A program made the translations under genes and the position numbers. A model generated the notes under the pieces. It saw only the letters and a list, made by a program, of their open reading frames with translations. It had not been told where the DNA came from and searched no databases. From the NCBI RefSeq assembly GCF_900169305.1, contig NZ_FWDP01000004.1, forward strand, positions 806,001 through 870,000: 64,000 bases of DNA, in the 5' to 3' direction. Origin of the DNA: Marinilactibacillus piezotolerans (GTDB lineage Bacteria; Bacillota; Bacilli; Lactobacillales; Carnobacteriaceae_A). Of this stretch, positions 12,830 to 57,855 are shown piece by piece; the stretch's first letter is position 1; each line of letters starts with the position of its first letter.

Positions 12830-13325
12830 CGGAGTTTCATATGTCGGTTTAAGAAGATGTTTTTGGTGCTGAGTTGGAAATTTGATCTGACTTCTTAGGC
12901 GAAGTCGCGAATTTTTGGTGCTTAACTTGAATGCTGTGGTGAATTGGTAGAATGTGTTGCGGATTGTCGGTACTCGTTTTGAGTGCTGCGGTGAGTTGGT
13001 AGAATACGTCGCAGTTTCTCGGTACTCAATTTGGATGCTGGATTGAGTTCGTAGAGTAGTCCGCCCATTTTTGGTACTCATCCTGTTTGTTGGCTTGAGT
13101 TCGCAGAATAAACCGCAAATTCTCGGTACTCATCCTGTTTGTTGGCTTGAGTTCGGAGAATAAGCCGCCTATTCTCGGTGCTCACCCTGATTATTGGCTC
13201 GAGTTCGCAGAATAAGCCGCCTATTCTTAGTACTCACGCTAAACGCTGGCTCGGCTTCATAGAATAGCCGCCTATTTTCGGCACTCAGCATAAATTACGA
13301 TATGAGAGCGCAAAATAAGGAACGG
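12830..13325. repeat. Intergenic 52-bp tandem repeat array A
   Basis: About nine and a half degenerate units. The marker GGTACT or its variants occurs at 12865, 12917, 12969, 13021, 13073, 13125, 13177, 13229 and 13280: every step is 52 bp except the last (51). Each unit carries an imperfect inverted repeat, TGAGTTCGCAGAATA then about 7 bases then TATTCTCGGTACTCA, joined by a linker of about 15 bp. The array lies between the distal esterase and the osmC terminator. An apparent 95-codon reading frame inside it is a by-product of the repeat, as 52 is not divisible by three. Confidence 0.9.
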
Positions 13326-14117: not shown

Positions 14118-14192
14118 TTTACTTTTCCCTCCGTTTACTTTTACACCACGTTTTGACGATTGCTCGTTTTAAGCCTTTTGAGGATGCGAAAA

Positions 14193-14660
14193 ACTACTAA
14201 TTAGACTTTTATTCCATATGTTATTTTCAATATTCATACTTATCTCGACGAATAGGTTCATTATTCGGTACGTTATTTCCAATCTTATCTTTTATCTCAC
14301 TGTATTCATCCTTTATTCTGCATGTTATTCAAATCTCTAACCGATAAGTCGTCGAATCAAGTCATTATTCCACACGTTATTCTCAATATAGATCCGTATC
14401 TCGTCGAATACGCATCTTATTCCACACGTTGCTTTAAATTTATCTTCGTAAGTCGTCGAATCCTGTTGTTATTCTACACGTTATTTTCAGTATAGAACAG
14501 TATCTCGTTGAATCTATCCTCTATTCACCATGTTACTTCACTTATGCAACGCTAAGTCGCTGAATTTCCCCTTTATTCTACATGTTATTTTCGAGAAGAA
14601 TCATTAACTCTCCGAATCCTCCCTTTCGCCCTCGTATTATTTTAAAATCTAACCGTACCG
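14193..14660. repeat. Intergenic 52-bp tandem repeat array B with 104-bp alternation
   Basis: Nine units of exactly 52 bp. The phase marker TCGTCGAAT or variants lies at 14193, 14245, 14297, 14349, 14401, 14453, 14505, 14557 and 14609. The unit core is TCGTCGAAT, six bases, then TTATTCNACACGTTATT. Units alternate in their last bases (ATC, AAG, ATC, AAG) and in their linkers, giving a 104-bp dimer from about 14297 on. The array fills the gap between the tRNA and the ABC exporter terminator. It resembles arrays A and C in period and in the GAAT/ATTC dyad but not in overall sequence. Confidence 0.9.
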
Positions 14661-14692
14661 CTCTTCACTTTTCTCCAAAAACAAAAAGGAAT

Positions 14693-30188: not shown

Positions 30189-31922
30189 TTATTCTATTAC
30201 TTCTTTACTGAGATTTTCCGTTGTATCTACTTTACTGCCGAGCAAGTAGACCATAGCGACTACTGCTGCTAACGTAAGCGGCAGAGATAGCCAGATACTC
30301 AATCCCATAGCTACCGGCAAATATCCAAATAAAATGGAGATCCCGCCAACGGACACTGCATAAGGTATTTGTGTTTTCACATGATCCAGTAAGTTTGAAC
30401 CAGCACCCATTGAAGATAAAATCGTAGTATCCGAGATTGGAGAACTATGATCTCCAAAAATCGCACCGGTTAACACTGCTCCAGCTGACATAATGACAAA
30501 CTGCGGATCTTCAGGGCGCATTCCTGTGGCCAATGGTATTGCCAGCGGCATCAAAATCCCCATCGTTCCATAAGAAGTTCCTGTGGAAAACGAGATAATG
30601 GCACCAAGCAGGAAAATCACCGTTGGCAAAAGAACTGACGGCATCGTATCACCAAGCAGCGATACTAGATAATCAGCCGTGCCTAACTCGTTCATCACAC
30701 TTGATAATGACCAGGCAAGCAACAAGACAACCCCAGTGATCATCAGCGTTTTCATCCCATTGACCCAAATTTCGATCCCTTTAGCAAAATTGAATATTTC
30801 CTGTGACACACCCATAACCATTGCAATTATACTTGAAATCAGTGCTGCCTGAAATAGTACAACAGAAGCATCTGAAGCGCCAAACGTTTCTCTAATCGTA
30901 CTGAAAGAGAAAGGAGCATTGGAAATGCTTTGTGCTAGTGCAGCATTGTCGCCGCTTAATATCGCTGAGCGGCCATTCATGTAAAATCCGATAAAACTAA
31001 ACAAAATCAGACTTCCAATTGGAACTAATGCATTCATAATAGAAGCTTTTTCATTTACCATGCTCTCTTGTTCTTCTTCGCCGCTTTCAACTTCTGAATC
31101 TTCTGCTATCAGCAGTCCAGTATCTCTAGCGCGTTCCTGTGCTTTTTTCATTGGACCAAATTCTCTTAATGTAAGGGAAGTTACAACAACAAAGAACAGC
31201 ATCAGAATGTTATAGAACCGATAAGGAACGGTTTCTAAAAAGATACCATATGCATTGACATTTTCACCTATTGATTGATAGGCATCGTTGATCAACCCTA
31301 CTTCATAACCGATCCAAGTAGAAACTAACGCGATCCCTGCAATTGGTGCTGCAGTCGCATCGATCAGAAATGCTAACCGTTCTCTTGAGATGTTCACTTT
31401 ATCTGAAACCGGCCGCATGATTGGACCAACAATTAGAGCATTGGCGTAATCATCAAAGAAAATCAATACTCCGAGTGCCCATGTGATCAATTGCGTACTG
31501 ACCGGCCCTTTAGCTTTTTTAGCCAAACTTTCTGCCACTGCTTGAGCACCGCCCATACTCGTAATCAGTGCAATCAGTCCGCCGATCGTCATCACTTGTA
31601 GAATGATTCCCGCATTCCAAGGATCCGCTAAAGACCCTAAAATATAGTCAACGATCGCTGTAAATCCGTTGATCAGCGCCATCAGCATATTTTCTCCCAT
31701 AGAGAACTGAATGATGATTGATCCAGAAAAAATGCCTACAAATAAAGACAAAACCACATTTTTTGTAACAAACGCCAACAATATAGCTAGGATCGGCGGT
31801 ATCAATGTCAACCAGCCGATTGATCCAGCCATGCTGGCTTCTACCTCTTCCGCATGAACTGTCTGCGGTATTAACCATAAGATGCTCATCAGAATCAACA
31901 TACCCCATTTTAATCTTCTCAT
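30189..31922 (-). CDS. NhaC-family transporter under lysine riboswitch, probable lysine importer (LysW-like)
   Basis: Polytopic membrane protein of about 577 residues of the Na+/H+ antiporter NhaC superfamily, about 12 helices, with the motifs FFDDYANALIVGP and SFSTGTSYGTMGILMPLA. A lysine riboswitch directly upstream shows it responds to lysine, as for the NhaC-type lysine transporters called LysW in comparative studies of L-box regulons. I placed the start at ATG 31922, where a signal-like first helix (MRRLKWGMLILMSILWL) begins and AGAGG/GGAG precede; ATG 31943 is also possible. The frame upstream to 32018 runs into the riboswitch terminator and is not coding. Confidence 0.87.
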   Translation of the reverse strand: MRRLKWGMLILMSILWLIPQTVHAEEVEASMAGSIGWLTLIPPILAILLAFVTKNVVLSLFVGIFSGSIIIQFSMGENMLMALINGFTAIVDYILGSLADPWNAGIILQVMTIGGLIALITSMGGAQAVAESLAKKAKGPVSTQLITWALGVLIFFDDYANALIVGPIMRPVSDKVNISRERLAFLIDATAAPIAGIALVSTWIGYEVGLINDAYQSIGENVNAYGIFLETVPYRFYNILMLFFVVVTSLTLREFGPMKKAQERARDTGLLIAEDSEVESGEEEQESMVNEKASIMNALVPIGSLILFSFIGFYMNGRSAILSGDNAALAQSISNAPFSFSTIRETFGASDASVVLFQAALISSIIAMVMGVSQEIFNFAKGIEIWVNGMKTLMITGVVLLLAWSLSSVMNELGTADYLVSLLGDTMPSVLLPTVIFLLGAIISFSTGTSYGTMGILMPLAIPLATGMRPEDPQFVIMSAGAVLTGAIFGDHSSPISDTTILSSMGAGSNLLDHVKTQIPYAVSVGGISILFGYLPVAMGLSIWLSLPLTLAAVVAMVYLLGSKVDTTENLSKEVIE

Positions 31923-32002
31923 ACCTCTTTTTACTCCAATCATCTCTTTTTGTTTCGACGCTCTCAAACGATCGAAAGGTGCAGTATACTCTCTATTTTT
32001 GC

Positions 32003-32226
32003 TCAAAAAAAAGAGCATTCAAGGCCTTATCACCCTAAATGCTGTTATCTCTGCACATAGCTTGATAGTGCTCCACGAAATTCGTGACAGTTGCCCGCTT
32101 CTTCAACGGACCCCCAGCAAAATGGTTTGACGAATCCACCCTGCTTCGGCAAAGAACCCTTTCTGATCCCTTCATCGGCTGTCCGCCTCCAGCATCATAC
32201 TGATTTTCCCCGCACCTCTATCTGTA
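32003..32226 (-). promoter_or_regulatory. Lysine riboswitch (L box) with terminator
   Basis: Reading the minus strand, the leader has AGATAGAGGTGCGG, then AGTAT, GATGAAGGGATC, TTTGCCGAAGCA, TCGTCAAA, TTGCTGGG, AACTGTCACGAA and GTGGAGCACTATC in that order, the ordered signature of the L-box aptamer. P1 pairs GATAG (plus 32218-32222) with CTATC (32064-32068). An intrinsic terminator follows (AGCATTTAGG/CCTTGAATGCT then T8, plus 32005-32044). Lysine binding is expected to promote termination and switch off the transporter gene. Confidence 0.93.
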
Positions 32227-32425
32227 TTTAATTACCTAAAATAGTTTACAAGGAAATTAAAGGGAATGCAAGGGATGATTAGAATTTGTTATATTTTGAA
32301 AATGTCGTTCATCAGTTTACTGTTCATTCTGACTTTAGTTTAGGAATCCCTTTAACTTGTATATCCTCATGTTTAGGTCTGACGGATCTTATACTAGGTA
32401 TTCTTAAGATTTGGCATTTTTTGAT

Positions 32426-32996
32426 TTTAATGCTGAGGATTTGTTTCTATTTTCTGGACTTTGTCTATTTTTCATTTTGAGTAAAGAGAATTTTGCTTCT
32501 ATTTTCGGTACTCGCTCTCTTTCCGCTTTGAGTACGGAAAATTTTGCGCTTATTTTCGCCACTCACCCTATTCCTAACTTTGAGTACGCATAATTCGGCT
32601 TCTATTTTCGGCACTCATCTTCTTTCCATCTTTGAGTACCTAAAATTCCGCTACTATTAACAGCACTCGTATTCTTTTCTGTTTTGAGTACGAAGAATAT
32701 CACGCCTAATTTTGTTACTCATGCCATTTCCTGTTCCGAGTTCAAACAATTCCTCTCCTATTTTCGGCACTCACACCTTTTTCCACTCTGAGTTCAAACA
32801 ATTCCTCTCTTATTTTTGCTACTCGAACCCTTTCCTACTCTGAGTTCAAACAATTCCTCTCTTATTTTTGCTACTCGAACCCTTTCCTACTCTGAGTTCA
32901 AACAATTCCTCTCTTATTTTCGCTACTCGACTTTTTTCCAACTCTGAGTACAAACAATGCACCTCCAGTTTTCCCCACTCATGCATTATTCAATAC
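32426..32996. repeat. Intergenic 52-bp tandem repeat array C
   Basis: About eleven units. The marker CGGTACT or variants lies at 32454, 32506, 32557, 32609, 32661, 32713, 32765, 32817, 32869, 32921 and 32973, all 52 bp apart except one 51-bp step. The unit resembles array A and has the same orientation: TGAGTACGGAAAAT, about 8 bases, then TATTTTCGCCACTCA, then a linker. Units near 32786-32925 are almost identical to each other, which shows recent amplification. It lies between the lysine riboswitch promoter area and the terminator of the SDR gene. Short frames inside it are artefacts. Confidence 0.9.
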
Positions 32997-33078: not shown

Positions 33079-33125
33079 AAAAACTAACCTTCTCAATTGA
33101 TTACTCAATAGAGAAAGGTTAGTTA
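33079..33125 (-). terminator. Terminator of the SDR gene
   Basis: AACTAACCTT(T)CTC and its complement pair around a long loop; the minus strand continues TTTTTTG. Confidence 0.8.
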
Positions 33126-33136
33126 TGTTCAGTAGA

Positions 33137-33922
33137 TTAATAAGCTTTGACCATGCCGCCGTCTACTAAGATCGTTTGACCGGTTAAATAAGTGTTGGCT
33201 CCTGATACTAGGAATGTTGCGACTTTTGCAAATTCTTCTGGTTCACCGTAACGTCCCAGCGGAATTGTTTTTTCCATTGCTTCGGTAACTTCTTCTTGCG
33301 TTTTGTTTTGTTTTTCAGCTTTTTTTGAATCCAGTTCGACGATACGGTCTGTTTCGATACGTCCAGGTCCGATCGTATTGACTAGAATTCCGTCCGCTGC
33401 CAATTCTTGGCTTAAACTTTTAGATAATCCTGAGATACCCATTCTGAACACATTGGACAATGTCAGTCCGTCAATCGGCTGTTTGACGGATGAAGACGTG
33501 TTATTCAGTATATGACCACCTGTTTTTTTCAAATCAGGCAGCACTTCTCTGATCGTTCGGATAAAGCTGAACAGGGTTAAATCAAATGCCTTTTGCCAAT
33601 CTTCATCATCAAAATCTTCAAAGGTTCCCCCTGGAGGACCTCCAGCATTATTGACGAGTACACTGATCGGACCAAATTCAGAACGAGTATTTTCAACTAG
33701 ATTTTTGATATTTTCTGCATCTGTAATATCTGCCACTGTATAGGCAACTTTTCCTACAGCTACTTTTTCAATATCTTTTTTGGCTGCGGCAAGCTTTTCC
33801 TCATTACGGCTGGTCAGCATTACATTAGCCCCTTCTTTAGCCAGCTCTTTGGCGATCGCTTTTCCAAGACCAGAACTGGAAGCCAGTACAAGGGCAACTT
33901 TTCCTGTTAAATTCAAATCCAT
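33137..33922 (-). CDS. SDR family oxidoreductase lacking the YxxxK pair
   Basis: Soluble protein of 261 residues with the short-chain dehydrogenase fold: LASSSGLGKAIA (cofactor loop), NNAGGPPGG, NNTSSS and a C-terminal TGQTILVDGGM. In ordinary SDRs the catalytic Tyr and Lys form YxxxK; here the aligned stretch is SNVFRMGISGL with no Tyr/Lys pair, as in an SDR subgroup annotated as 3-oxoacyl-ACP reductase-like. The substrate is unknown and catalysis may be altered. ATG follows AAAGGAGG. It follows the glycine cleavage genes' orientation but has its own terminator. Confidence 0.88.
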   Translation of the reverse strand: MDLNLTGKVALVLASSSGLGKAIAKELAKEGANVMLTSRNEEKLAAAKKDIEKVAVGKVAYTVADITDAENIKNLVENTRSEFGPISVLVNNAGGPPGGTFEDFDDEDWQKAFDLTLFSFIRTIREVLPDLKKTGGHILNNTSSSVKQPIDGLTLSNVFRMGISGLSKSLSQELAADGILVNTIGPGRIETDRIVELDSKKAEKQNKTQEEVTEAMEKTIPLGRYGEPEEFAKVATFLVSGANTYLTGQTILVDGGMVKAY

Positions 33923-51342: not shown

Positions 51343-53763
51343 TTAGTTTGGTGCTACTATATTGACGAGTTTTCCGGGTACGACGATCACTTTGCGAACC
51401 GTTTTCCCTTCCAGATGTTCTTGAATATTTTCATTTTCCATTGCCATTTTCTCAAGCTCTTCTTTTGAGATTGATTTCGAAGCCGTTGCTTTACCGCGGA
51501 CTTTACCATTAATTTGGAAGACCACTTCTACTTCATCTGTGACGAGTTTTGATTCATCATACGTTGGCCATGCTTCATAGGAAACACTTTCGCCGGTTTG
51601 AGCGATGCGTTTCCACAATTCTTCTCCCAAATGCGGAGCAATCGGTGCCAGCATTTTAATGAATCCTTTGATATAATCGATTGGCAGTCCATCTGCTTTA
51701 TAAGCTGCATTAACAAAGACCATCAACTGAGAAATACCTGTATTAAACTGCAGCTGATCAAAGTCATTAGTGACTTTCTTAACAGTCTGATTATATACAA
51801 CATCTAAGGTTCCATCGTTAAAGGTCGTAATCCGGTCTCTTACATGATCATTTTCATCGATCAGCAATCTCCAGACACGGTCCAGGAATTTTCTAGACCC
51901 TTCCAGTCCATCTGTACTCCATGCAATTGCCGCATCAAGCGGCCCCATAAACATTTCATACACTCTCAATGTATCCGCTCCGTACTCTTCGACTACATCA
52001 TCCGGATTGACAACATTGCCTTTTGATTTAGACATTTTCTCGTTGTTTTCTCCCAGTATCATACCTTGGTTGTATAGACGTTCAAACGGTTCTTTTGTAG
52101 GAACAACTTCAAGATCATACAAGAATTTATGCCAGAAGCGTGCATATAGCAGATGCAATACAGCGTGTTCAGCTCCGCCAATATACAAGTCGACTGGAAG
52201 CCATTTTTTCAGTTTTTCTGGGTCAGCCAATTGATCCGGATTTTTTGGATCAATAAATCTTAGGAAGTACCATGAGCTTCCTGCCCATTGCGGCATTGTA
52301 TTTGTATCGCGTTTCCCTTTTTTGCCGGTTTCCGGGTCTACCACATTTACCCAATCTTCGATCACAGCAAGCGGTGACTCGCCTGTGCCTGATGGTTTGA
52401 TGGCATCTGTTTTCGGCAATTCGATCGGCAGTTCCGATTCTGGAACAGTAGTGGTTGTGCCATCTTCCCAGTGGATTACTGGTATCGGCTCGCCCCAATA
52501 TCTCTGACGGGCAAATAGCCAGTCGCGCAGACGATAGGTCACTTTTCTTTCGCCGACTTTCAAATCTTCAAGATATGCAATCATCTGATTGATGCCTTCT
52601 TCTTTGTTCAATCCATCTAGAAAGTCAGAATTAATGTGTGGACCATCTTCTGTAAAGGCTGCTTCCTCTACATTGCCGCCTTCTAGTACAGGAATGATGG
52701 GCAAATCATATTTTTTCGCAAATTCCCAGTCGCGTTCGTCATGCGCTGGTACTGCCATGATTGCACCCGTTCCATAAGAAGCCAGTACATAGTCAGCAAT
52801 ATAGATTGGCAGTTCTTCACCATTTACTGGATTAATAGCATACGCTCCAGTGAAGACACCGGATTTATCTTTATTCAAGTCAGTTCTTTCAAGGTCTGAC
52901 TTATTATTCGCTGTTTGGATATAGTTTTCTACTGCTTCCTTCTGTTCGGCTGTTGTAATGCTGGAAACAATCTCTGATTCTGGCGCTAGAACGGCATAAG
53001 TTGCACCGAACAATGTATCTGGACGAGTCGTAAAGACAGTGAAGTTAAGTTCTGAGTCTTTGATTTTAAAGGTGACGTTTGCCCCTTCAGATTTACCGAT
53101 CCAGTTGCGCTGCATATCTTTAATGTGCTCCGGCCAGTCGACGTCTTCCAAGTCTTCAAGCAAACGGTCGGCATAAGCTGTAATCTTCAGCATCCACTGT
53201 TTCATTGGTTTACGGTAAACAGGATGTCCCCCGCGTTCTGATTTTCCGTCGATGACTTCTTCGTTTGCCAGAACGGTTCCAAGAGCCGGACACCAGTTGA
53301 CCGGTACTTCTGCTTCATAAGCCAGTCCTTTTTCATAAAGCTTGATAAAGATCCACTGTGTCCATTTATAATAGTCAGGATCAGTCGTATTGATTTCTCT
53401 ATCCCAATCATAGCTGAATCCTAGTGAATTGATCTGACGCTTGAATGTCTGAATATTTTTGGCTGTAAATTCAGCAGGGTCGTTTCCGGTGTCCAGTGCA
53501 TACTGTTCAGCCGGCAGTCCAAATGCATCCCACCCCATTGGATGAAGGACGTTATATCCTTGAGCACGTTTCATACGGGAAACGATATCTGTAGCTGTAT
53601 AGCCTTCGGGGTGACCAACATGCAGCCCTTGTCCAGAAGGATAAGGGAACATATCCAGTGCATAGAAGTATTCCTTATTTTCATCTTCTGTGGCTTTAAA
53701 TGTTTTCTGTTCAGCCCAGTAATTCTGCCACTGACGTTCGATTGTTTTATGGTTGAATGACAT
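51343..53763 (-). CDS. leuS: Leucyl-tRNA synthetase
   Basis: Class I aminoacyl-tRNA synthetase of 806 residues that charges tRNA-Leu. The HIGH motif is in [21 protein letters not shown] and the KMSKS loop in [13 protein letters not shown] (about residues 576-580). The CP1 editing domain lies between them, with [12 protein letters not shown] and the editing Asp block [14 protein letters not shown] follows AAGGAGAG. Controlled by a T-box leader with terminator directly upstream. Confidence 0.98.
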
Positions 53764-53796: not shown

Positions 53797-54050
53797 TAAA
53801 AAAAGCCCTATAGACTATACAGTTGTATAGTCTATAGGGCGTTATTAACGCGGTACCACCTAATTTTATCGTCTCATAAGAAGACGATCTCAAATCCTTA
53901 ACGCGGATAAACGGATCAAGCTAATAGAACTGGATCGTCCTTTCACTTGAGCAACTTCCAGGCGAGTTCTGTCTCCTTTATGTGCATTTCCACCAGCCAT
54001 GCACTCTCTAGAAAAAAGGGTCAACGTACTATTCCTGTTTATCGTTTTTA
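53797..54050 (-). promoter_or_regulatory. T-box leader of leuS
   Basis: The T-box word GGTGGTACCGCG (minus strand, plus 53849-53861) is followed by a long terminator hairpin (GCCCTATAGACTATAC and complement, plus 53804-53840) and T7. Stem I is recognisable from GAATAGTACGTTGA through AGAGAGTGC and GCTGG to the specifier region AGAACTCGCC, where CTC (Leu) is the likely specifier codon. Uncharged tRNA-Leu should stabilise the antiterminator and switch leuS on. Confidence 0.93.
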
Positions 54051-54153
54051 TGATTTGATTACTCAAATCTATTTTATGTTGGATTTTCTTTATCTTACCA
54101 AAGGGATTGCATACCTGCAACATCTTTTTGGTGTTGATTAATCTGCCAGCTTC

Positions 54154-55935
54154 TTATAAAGATAACAATTGATCAACAAAGATCAAGTCTGAAGACAGTT
54201 TGTTTTTCTCTTTCAATTGCTGGATCGTTGTATCAAACTTGCGGGCAATACCAGACAAAGTGTCTCCGCTGACTACACGATACTGATTCTTTGTTAAATC
54301 GGTCTGTTCAGCATTTGGCTTATCTTTAATAGTCTTATTTGATTCAGCGACTTGACCGACTGTTAATTTTTGACCGATGTAAATGGTATCTGATTCAAGT
54401 TTGTTCCACTCTTTTAGTTTCGCTACTGAAGTTTGATAGTCCAAAGCGATCTTGTAAAGTGAATCTCCTGATACAACTGTGTAATTTACAGCTGTATTGT
54501 GTGAATCTTCTTTTTCAGAAGGCTCGGACGATACTTGCTTGTCCGTTTTCTGTGTCTGGTTTTCAGCCTGAGGCACTGACAAAGTTTGACCGACAAAAAT
54601 CAGATCTGATTTCAATCCATTAGCAGATTTCAAAGCAGCTACTGTTGTGTTATATGTTTTAGCTAATCCAGATAAGGTATTACCCGGTTCTACTGTAATC
54701 TTTCCTTTTGATTGAGCCGTTTCACTATCTGTTTTATTCTCTGTTTCTTTAACGGACTCTGCTTTTCCACTAACTTTCAACGTTTGACCAACGAAAATCA
54801 AATCTGATTTTAACTGATTATCGCTTTTCAGTTTGGCAACTGTCGTGTTATAGCTGCGAGCGATACCGCTGAGCGTGTCGCCTGCTTTCACTTTATGTGT
54901 GCCGGTAATGCTGGCTTCTTCAGAAGGTTTAGTTGTTTCCACTGGATCAGCAGATACAACTGTTCTATTGATAGACAGCGTCTGATTTACAAAAATCAAA
55001 TCGGTTTTAAGTTGATTAGTCGACTTGATGGCTGATACCGTTGTGTTGAATCGTCTTGCAATTCCAGATAGTGTATCACCCGCTTTAACGGTATAACGCG
55101 TTTCTTTCGCTGTTTCAGAATTATCGGGTTTTGAAGTTTCCGTATTTCCTGCTGAAGCATTTTCACCCGTTTTCCTTGGAACCGCTAGTTTCTGATTCGC
55201 AAAAATCAAGTCAGAAGTTAAGTTGTTCGCTTTCTTGATTGCTGACACGGTTGTACTGAATTTTCTAGCTATCCCCGAAAGCGTATCTCCGCTTTTCACT
55301 TGATAACTGGATTGTATTGTTTCTTGCTCTTGTTCTTTTTCTGGAGCCGTTGGTTCTTTTTCATTGGTCTCTGCTAGTTGACCAGAAAGTTTTAAGGTCT
55401 GACCTACATAGATCATATCAGATGATAGTTTATTGGCCGATTTGATTGCTGAAACGGTCATATTATAGCGTCTCGCTATCCCAGAAAGTGTATCTCCGGC
55501 TTTAATCTTATAAGTCGTTTGAGTAGTGTCAGGTTTTGTTTCAGGCTGCTGACTCTCTGAAGGCGCAGTCTCTGCAGCTTTTCCAGGAATCATTAATGTC
55601 TGGTTCACATAAATCATATCTGACTTCAAGTTGTTTGCGGATTTAATTGCAGATACAGTTGTTTTATATTTTCTGGCAATACCTGATAATGTATCTCCGC
55701 TTTTTACTTTGTAAGCTGACTGACCAGCTTCTGGTTTAGTTTCCGGAGTTGAAGGTGAAGATGGTTCTGTTACTTTATCATCCTCTGTTTCTGATAAAGA
55801 ACCCGGAATCAATAAAGTCTGATTTACAAAAATCATATCGGACGTCAGCTTATTCGCTGATTTAATTGCTGAAACGGTCGTATTGTATCTTCTTGCAATT
55901 CCGCTTAACGTGTCGCCGCTGACCACTTTGTAATT
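54154..55935 (-). repeat. Nine in-gene LysM repeats of about 195 bp
   Basis: The 3' half of the autolysin gene is a tandem series of about 195-bp units encoding LysM modules and Ser/Thr/Glu linkers. The first five or six are very alike at the protein level (GDTLSGIAR[RK]YxTTVSAIKSANxLxSD), the last two more diverged, consistent with recent expansion inside the array. Confidence 0.85.
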
Positions 55936-57855
55936 GATGCTATCCGTTTGTTCAGCTGGCGGCGTTGCAGGTTGGGCTGGTTTAGAAGAATCGACCGGCT
56001 TAGATGGAGTAGTTTCATTTCCAGTATCAGGAATGACACCATCGTATTTTGTAAGATTGTATAATTCAATCAAGTTGTTCAACTTGCTGGCATAAGTCGG
56101 ATCTGTAGCGTAACGTCCTTGCAGCCAAGCTGAAGCATCTCTATATGAAGTCGTATTTTCTACCCAAGCTCCTGCATAGTACTCGTTATTCCAACTTGTA
56201 CCATTACGAATCAATCGAGCATTATCTTGAAGCGATTCTGCGTAACTAGGATACTTTTTAAAGTAATCGGTAATGGTAATCCAACCCGTACTATTGTAGT
56301 ATTCTCGGGTTTTCATTGCTACTGACTGACCATTGTATTCTCCTTTGATTCCAAATAAGTTGTGGTTTGGCGGAGACGACAACTGACTTTTTCCATAACC
56401 AGATTCCAGACTAGCTTGTGCAATCATAATAGAAGCATAGATTCCATTTTCTTTAGCTACTGTCTTAGCATATCCAGAAATTTGGTTGATGAAGTCTTCA
56501 GCAGATTGTGCCTTGTTCAAATTACCTGTATTGGCAGCTGTTGTCGTTACTGCTTCTAATCCCGCTGTATTGATTGCCAGTTTCTGTCCAACTTTGATCA
56601 AATTGGCGCTCGCTAATTTATTTAATGAAACGATTTTACTGACCGTTGTTCCATATTGTTTCGAGATTTTATTAAGCGTATCTCCTGATTTTACAGTATG
56701 GACAATTGCTTTTTCCTCAGTCTTGGTTTCTTTTGTTTCAGCTTTCTGAGTTTCGGCTTTTTTATTCTCCGTTATTTCTGCATCAGTTTTTTGAGTTTCG
56801 GTTTTTTCTGTTTTTTTCACTGTTTCTGTTTCGGTCACTTGTTCAGTTTTATCTTTAGAAACAGTCTCAGCTGACTGATTAGAAGAATTAGTTTCTTTTG
56901 CAGTTTCCTCTGCTTCATCTTCAGTATTTACAGCAGTTTCAGCAGCTTTATCTGTTGCCTTTTCTGTCGTTTCAGCGTCTAGCTCAGAGTCATTTTTTGC
57001 ATCTATTTCTGTTATTGTTTCAGCAGAATTTTCTTGAACTGATTTACTTTCATCTGCTGCAGACTCCTCTTGTGAACCAGCAACTTTCACAGAAGCTGCT
57101 CTTGCTGATTCGATCGGTGCTGAATTTACGGGTTCAATGGTTTCATCATCATCAGGTGAAGATGTCACCTGAACATTTTCGGATTGATCTGTTTCTTTTT
57201 CCAGTTCTGCTTCTGTGTTCTCAATAGTATTGGTGGTATCGGCAGTTTCTTTGCTACCAAGTTCTTGTGTAATTTTTTCTTCCGTCTTTTTAACTGGATC
57301 AGATAGATTTTCTTCTGTTTTCTCTTCAGAAACTTCAGTGGTTTCTTCCGCAGCAGCATCTTCAGTTGGCTTTTCTTCAGTATGTTCAACAGCCTCAGTC
57401 TCTACAGCTTTAACAGCGCTGTTTGATTCGGCTTGTTCTAGTTGGTAAGTAAGTAATGTCTCAAAAACGGCATCCAACTCACTAGATGAAAGCTGGTCAA
57501 CATTCAATTGCTCTACTAATGCTGTTCCTCCAGCCAGTTCGATCATTTTGATCAGTTGAGATCTTACAAATGCCATTTCTTCTTTTTCTGCTTCTGTTAA
57601 GACAGGGATATCAGTATCTTCAGTTGAATTTCCATCTGATTCCTGGTCATTGACGGTGGATTGAAGTTCATTATATTGATCATATAATGCCTGTATATCT
57701 TCTTTATTTAAATCGATTTCTTCAGCTTGTACCGCTTCTCCAAAGGCAGAAACAGCTACCATACTCGCTAAAATACTGGAAGACATTGTCAGCTTTAATG
57801 CACGCTTATTCTGTTGTTTTTTGTATAAAGCTAACTTTTCACTTCGATTGATCAT
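54154..57855 (-). CDS. LysM autolysin: GH73 N-acetylglucosaminidase with ten LysM modules
   Basis: Secreted peptidoglycan hydrolase of 1233 residues. A signal peptide (cleavage after VQAEE region, about residue 44) is followed by a long acidic Thr/Glu/Ser-rich region (to about 380), one LysM (about 383-430), a GH73 glucosaminidase domain (about 455-602; catalytic Glu in AQASLESGYGKS) and nine more LysM modules of about 65 residues to the C-terminus, each with GDTLSGIAR and SDxIxVxQTL blocks. The plan resembles enterococcal AtlA/muramidase-2, which has fewer modules. It should separate daughter cells. ATG follows GAGGGG. The gene is single and lies just upstream of the leuS T-box. Confidence 0.93.
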   Translation of the reverse strand: MINRSEKLALYKKQQNKRALKLTMSSSILASMVAVSAFGEAVQAEEIDLNKEDIQALYDQYNELQSTVNDQESDGNSTEDTDIPVLTEAEKEEMAFVRSQLIKMIELAGGTALVEQLNVDQLSSSELDAVFETLLTYQLEQAESNSAVKAVETEAVEHTEEKPTEDAAAEETTEVSEEKTEENLSDPVKKTEEKITQELGSKETADTTNTIENTEAELEKETDQSENVQVTSSPDDDETIEPVNSAPIESARAASVKVAGSQEESAADESKSVQENSAETITEIDAKNDSELDAETTEKATDKAAETAVNTEDEAEETAKETNSSNQSAETVSKDKTEQVTETETVKKTEKTETQKTDAEITENKKAETQKAETKETKTEEKAIVHTVKSGDTLNKISKQYGTTVSKIVSLNKLASANLIKVGQKLAINTAGLEAVTTTAANTGNLNKAQSAEDFINQISGYAKTVAKENGIYASIMIAQASLESGYGKSQLSSPPNHNLFGIKGEYNGQSVAMKTREYYNSTGWITITDYFKKYPSYAESLQDNARLIRNGTSWNNEYYAGAWVENTTSYRDASAWLQGRYATDPTYASKLNNLIELYNLTKYDGVIPDTGNETTPSKPVDSSKPAQPATPPAEQTDSINYKVVSGDTLSGIARRYNTTVSAIKSANKLTSDMIFVNQTLLIPGSLSETEDDKVTEPSSPSTPETKPEAGQSAYKVKSGDTLSGIARKYKTTVSAIKSANNLKSDMIYVNQTLMIPGKAAETAPSESQQPETKPDTTQTTYKIKAGDTLSGIARRYNMTVSAIKSANKLSSDMIYVGQTLKLSGQLAETNEKEPTAPEKEQEQETIQSSYQVKSGDTLSGIARKFSTTVSAIKKANNLTSDLIFANQKLAVPRKTGENASAGNTETSKPDNSETAKETRYTVKAGDTLSGIARRFNTTVSAIKSTNQLKTDLIFVNQTLSINRTVVSADPVETTKPSEEASITGTHKVKAGDTLSGIARSYNTTVAKLKSDNQLKSDLIFVGQTLKVSGKAESVKETENKTDSETAQSKGKITVEPGNTLSGLAKTYNTTVAALKSANGLKSDLIFVGQTLSVPQAENQTQKTDKQVSSEPSEKEDSHNTAVNYTVVSGDSLYKIALDYQTSVAKLKEWNKLESDTIYIGQKLTVGQVAESNKTIKDKPNAEQTDLTKNQYRVVSGDTLSGIARKFDTTIQQLKEKNKLSSDLIFVDQLLSL

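Follow-up and report, generated by a model that had tools for sequence, protein, structure and literature searches.

Noncoding tandem repeats of 52 nt are known in Bacillus and other Firmicutes (Subirana and Messeguer 2021, PMC8161180). The accessible text of that paper characterizes them by a constant length combined with a species-specific sequence, in runs of 4–14 units that are partially conserved between strains. Their function is described there as not known, and roles involving a nucleoid protein or a small RNA have been suggested. The 52-nt repeats of B. coagulans are transcribed (PMC8625621). The literature searched contained no paper on such 52-nt repeats in Marinilactibacillus.

The analysis described here concerns a window of 64,000 nucleotides (C1:806001-870000) from a Marinilactibacillus genome of 2.29 Mb in four contigs. 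One of its repeat arrays, array C, proved to be a genuine member of the 52-nt noncoding tandem repeats ('satellites') of Firmicutes, displaying each of the class features that were tested. The repeat length is constant across arrays (51–53 nt, with a period of 52 and an occasional 51), the position is noncoding and intergenic, and the number of units lies in the published range of 4–14. Several sequence families of equal length (types A, B and D) coexist in the genome, short signals are common to all of its repeats, often alongside their reverse, and the sequence is species-specific. These traits are shared with the repeats of Subirana and Messeguer, as far as the accessible text describes them. 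Unlike the Bacillus repeats presented in that text, those described here belong to a lactic acid bacterium outside Bacillus, with about 22 arrays in 2.3 Mb, and their core is defined to the base level. Their association with terminators and with group IIC intron remnants finds no mention in the accessible part of PMC8161180.

Array C was detected by both TRF and a repeat search, with a period of 52 bp and a single 51-bp step (Table 1). Each unit comprises a 37-bp imperfect dyad followed by a 15-bp pyrimidine-rich linker, and the unit starts lie at 32478, 32529, 32581, 32633, 32685, 32737, 32789, 32841, 32893 and 32945. An earlier note on this DNA had placed the array between a lysine riboswitch and an SDR gene and had held that local gene function does not explain it; the placement was confirmed and the second claim supported, and the motif that the note quoted was located at about 32529-32565. 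The recent expansion that it proposed is borne out by the stretch 32785-32868, an exact copy (84 nt) of the sequence 52 bp downstream. Its wording of three nearly identical units was slightly generous, since two are identical and the third is 88% like those. Among named relatives, the SDR protein is closest to those of Marinilactibacillus piezotolerans and M. psychrotolerans (81–82%). A search of array C against plasmids gave zero matches, and BLAST against 60 relatives gave just short weak matches outside the source genome.

Table 1. Repeat arrays of the window and features adjoining array C (window positions).
Feature	Position	Strand	Remarks
Array A	12838-13313	+	Type of array C (TGAGT half-sites), 52-bp period
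Array B	14159-14675	+	Other type, half-sites TTATCTCG / CACGTTAT; core, register and 52-bp period as array C
Lysine riboswitch	32058-32228	-	Belongs to antiporter gene 30189-32018; far side of array C
Degenerate partial unit	32426 (about)-32477	+	Left edge of array C; 51-bp offset
Array C	32478-32996	+ (pyrimidine-rich strand)	Ten 52-bp units
Recent duplication in array C	32785-32920	+	Exact 84-nt repeat, lag 52
Intrinsic terminator of SDR gene	33082-33124	-	Array C starts ~85 nt past the terminator
SDR (short-chain dehydrogenase) gene	33137-33922	-	Upstream of terminator 33082-33124

At least 22 array loci, all with a period of 52, were found in the genome by BLAST with three arrays, by autocorrelation without a motif over about 850 kb of sampled sequence and by a pattern search; this count is a minimum, the pattern-search loci being among the matches listed. 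In the sampled DNA, all of the stretches with r ≥0.8 had a lag of 52, 104 or 156. The arrays fall into three sequence types, A, B and D, with one dyad-symmetric core common to all, and at C1:786900-788580 type A units change to type B units inside a single run. Autocorrelation was the only method to detect two of the loci, C1:540387 and C3:307391, and both carry the core as well, indicating that the core is not solely a product of the BLAST queries. The overlapping reading frames are short ORFs of 83–109 aa, plus one 506-aa overlap call (C3:370768), and the noncoding nature of the arrays follows from a period that is not a multiple of three together with their location between genes.

Three weak autocorrelation matches (C1:751136, 860529 and 1340363) lack the core and were rejected as arrays. 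The second of them is coding and falls within a gene with LysM repeats: the large glucosaminidase gene at window positions 54154-57855 has ten LysM domains, and these repeats account for the autocorrelation near C1:860529. A T-box leader (Rfam) is present at 53832-54051 of the window, upstream of the leucyl-tRNA synthetase gene (51343-53763).

The units of arrays A and C share a mean identity of 52% (maximum 67%), compared with 26% for shuffled units, which confirms the earlier claim of a common motif in the same orientation. Across the genome, units from different arrays are 46% identical on average, and 163 of the 185 units have their nearest relative within their own array; arrays A and C thus have a common skeleton but did not arise by recent copying. 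The sharing between arrays that had been proposed therefore stands for the core motif and is not borne out as recent copying. In the same way, the element does occur at several loci in one orientation, at 22 or more of them rather than at two, and array B, in the same window, represents a further variant of this element.

The core consists of A3, AT13-14, ATT24-26 and T35, with the dyad centre at base 19. Seven positions (A3, A13, T14, A24, T25, T26 and T35) are invariant in all 22 array consensuses, and G11, A12 and C27 are nearly so, being mirrored about base 19 like the invariant positions. The register was set on bases 11-14 and 23-27, so that conservation there is partly by construction and A3 and T35 alone are independent of that choice. 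A double-unit core pattern matched the genome 131 times forward and 111 times in reverse, versus 0 + 0 for a reversed control. When 870 kb were surveyed, 83 core matches lay inside arrays and five outside, the latter at chance level (0–6 for control patterns), and dispersed single core sites acting as operators were rejected on this count. Core positions 3, 13, 25, 35 and 55 are separated by 10, 12, 10 and 20 bp, spacings that would approximate whole helical turns. The half-sites within single units are often imperfect, as in C3:307391. Dyad symmetry is seen in 18 of the 27 Bacillus 52-nt consensus units given in the accessible part of PMC8161180. In a wedge model, the intrinsic curvature of the arrays did not exceed that of column-shuffled ones (mean z 0.01).

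Comparison with the sister species shows no array at the orthologous OsmC and antiporter loci in any of the four other genomes of the genus. G003 has short arrays elsewhere, with nAAT/ATTn cores in the same register, and the arrays of G001 and G002 use GATA/TATC in that register. The AAT-type double-unit pattern gave 9 + 12 matches in G003 and 0–1 per strand in the remaining sister genomes, and the ATA-type pattern gave zero matches in the source genome and in G003. Both half-sites differ jointly between sisters (AAT/ATT here versus ATA/TAT in M. psychrotolerans), and a core that differs in both halves at several loci would fit a trans-acting recogniser. Dyad arrays were also seen outside the genus: a short 52-bp one of different sequence just downstream of the SDR terminator in Alkalibacterium sp. 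MB6 (L080:5926-6045), and a dyad array of nine units with period 53, adjoining an SDR gene, in Bacillus tianshenii (L135:4409-4885).

In most cases an intrinsic terminator, usually that of the right-hand gene, lies 28–150 nt from the array. This position right after terminators is also that of group IIC introns, and four type-D arrays lie within remnants of such introns: their flanks are 71–85% matching to the group IIC intron in the SDR-antiporter gap of G003, and the flank at C2:81665 exceeds the Rfam threshold for RF02001. Reading of the sequences indicates that the type-D array replaces part of the 5' domain of the intron. A weak group II match at C3:340080 was set aside, being without an array. 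The arrays of G001 and G002 have a flank in common with an IS256-family element end; a transposase of the IS256/Mutator family (PF00872) is encoded at L223:1561-2778, and related ends flank these 52-bp arrays.

The gap occupied by array C differs among relatives. It is empty in M. psychrotolerans, contains a transposase-like gene (judged by eye) in M. piezotolerans, and in G003 is filled by the group IIC intron itself (L210:8147-9390), directly after the SDR terminator and with a shortened intron-encoded ORF of 194 aa. Array C itself has no recognisable intron or IS remnant: the window gave no match to an intron in Rfam, and no shared flank was found. The earlier suggestion that the element had moved or been seeded thus draws evidence from the intron-remnant subtype and from the sister-species arrays beside IS256-family ends; for array C itself, the evidence extends to its being an insertion relative to M. 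psychrotolerans.

It is proposed, with belief and doubt in roughly equal measure, that the arrays are rows of predicted binding sites for dimers of a dedicated protein, with a DNA specificity that depends on the species. Each unit would be a putative site for one dimer, and the 52-bp period, at about five helical turns, would bring each dimer onto the same face of the helix as the one before, so that they could assemble along the array in the way that Subirana and Messeguer, in the accessible text, proposed for the nucleoid. The invariance of A3 and T35 in 22/22 consensuses, outside the register-setting bases, argues for protein sites, as do the core counts inside and outside arrays, the half-site symmetry, the different cores of the sister genomes and the dyads of the published Bacillus units. 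On the other side, some of the common core could reflect shared descent of the arrays, half-sites are often imperfect, and the argument from one-face spacing transfers only imperfectly to the published Bacillus units, which vary in arm spacing in the accessible part of that work. Arrays grow and shrink by whole units, identical units being found one to three repeats apart, and unequal recombination or slippage would probably be responsible. They lie in gaps just past terminators, and their co-location with group IIC introns and with IS ends suggests that some may have spread within the former or next to the latter.

Duplication by unit steps would equally be expected of a functionless satellite that originated through unequal recombination or slippage, was dispersed by chance along with mobile elements and kept its 52 bp only through descent. 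The location of arrays in insertion-tolerant gaps downstream of terminators, within degenerate introns and next to IS ends, and their absence from the orthologous loci of sisters, are consistent with this explanation. It is nevertheless considered rather unlikely, because seven positions are invariant in all 22 consensuses despite a mean inter-array identity of 46%, the period remains 52 across unrelated sequences and species (in the accessible text of PMC8161180), and the two half-sites differ together between sister species.

The dyad could also belong to an RNA, with the arrays transcribed as a hairpin chain that serves either as a protein sponge or as a small RNA. For each of the two strands, array RNA gives a better fold than shuffled sequence (z about -3.5), and a precedent exists in the transcribed repeats of B. 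coagulans (PMC8625621); however, equal folding of both strands is expected of any dyad. Arms from the same array are complementary at 9.36 of 14 positions, versus 7.39 of 14 when permuted across arrays (0/5000 permutations), an excess that is gone within types (9.36 versus 9.56; p 0.89). Double changes at paired positions retain pairing in 7/21 cases, about the chance rate, so that the symmetry appears as a property of the half-site type rather than of base-pairing maintained by each array. No hairpin covariation was detected within types, compensatory changes are absent within types and between units, positions 6, 8 and 9 in the interior of the arms mostly lack a pairing partner, and the arrays are located past terminators. 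Together, these data make an RNA element improbable.

Loop and linker agree on orientation in 19 arrays, and in 18 of these the pyrimidine-rich strand is the strand of negative GC skew; the four G003 arrays, scored by overall pyrimidine content, all follow the same rule. Such polarity would suit an element with orientation-dependent action at the replication fork, comparable to a KOPS- or Ter-like signal. The array at C2:196706 is oriented with replication and opposed to both neighbouring genes. However, gene direction also agrees with array orientation nearly everywhere, so this single array separates the two and favours replication. The array at C1:540387 is an exception, the loop and linker signals conflict at C1:772788 and C1:786900, and part of the pattern could come from the purine bias that leading strands show in general. 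A role of this kind is held to be very unlikely.

A REPIN-like system, in which hairpin units are amplified in single-stranded form by a Y1 (HUH) transposase, shares with the arrays intergenic imperfect palindromes and a replication-linked orientation but almost certainly does not apply here, given the absence of Y1_Tnp (PF01797) matches from all five genomes of the genus (versus 6/14 control genomes) and the occurrence of the units only in long tandem arrays, with no dispersed single copies. The arrays resemble CRISPR in their regular repeats with a partly palindromic segment, and differ in that unique spacers are absent, the entire 52-bp unit including the linker is repeated and at least 22 loci are present.

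The preferred reading, that of phased sites for a dimeric protein, can tentatively be extended. It is possible, though on the doubtful side, that the arrays are the DNA half of an undescribed two-part system in which a fast-evolving dimeric protein, dedicated to these sites, assembles along the phased dyads, the core that it recognises having been re-set genome-wide between sisters and the arrays spread partly via group II introns and IS ends.

The published 52-nt repeats are an enigma, in that the accessible text of PMC8161180 describes a fixed length, a free sequence and a function that is not known. To this class, the present data add a genome-wide core, the joint difference of the half-sites in sisters, a placement by terminators and an orientation that mostly follows the replication strand. 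They also add a subtype in group IIC intron remnants, sister arrays beside an IS256-family end and the comparison of the array C gap. How arrays are placed and spread is suggested by their association with terminators and with group IIC introns, and the mirror-symmetric core, common to all arrays of the genome and different in its sisters, would provide a defined bait for a partner protein.
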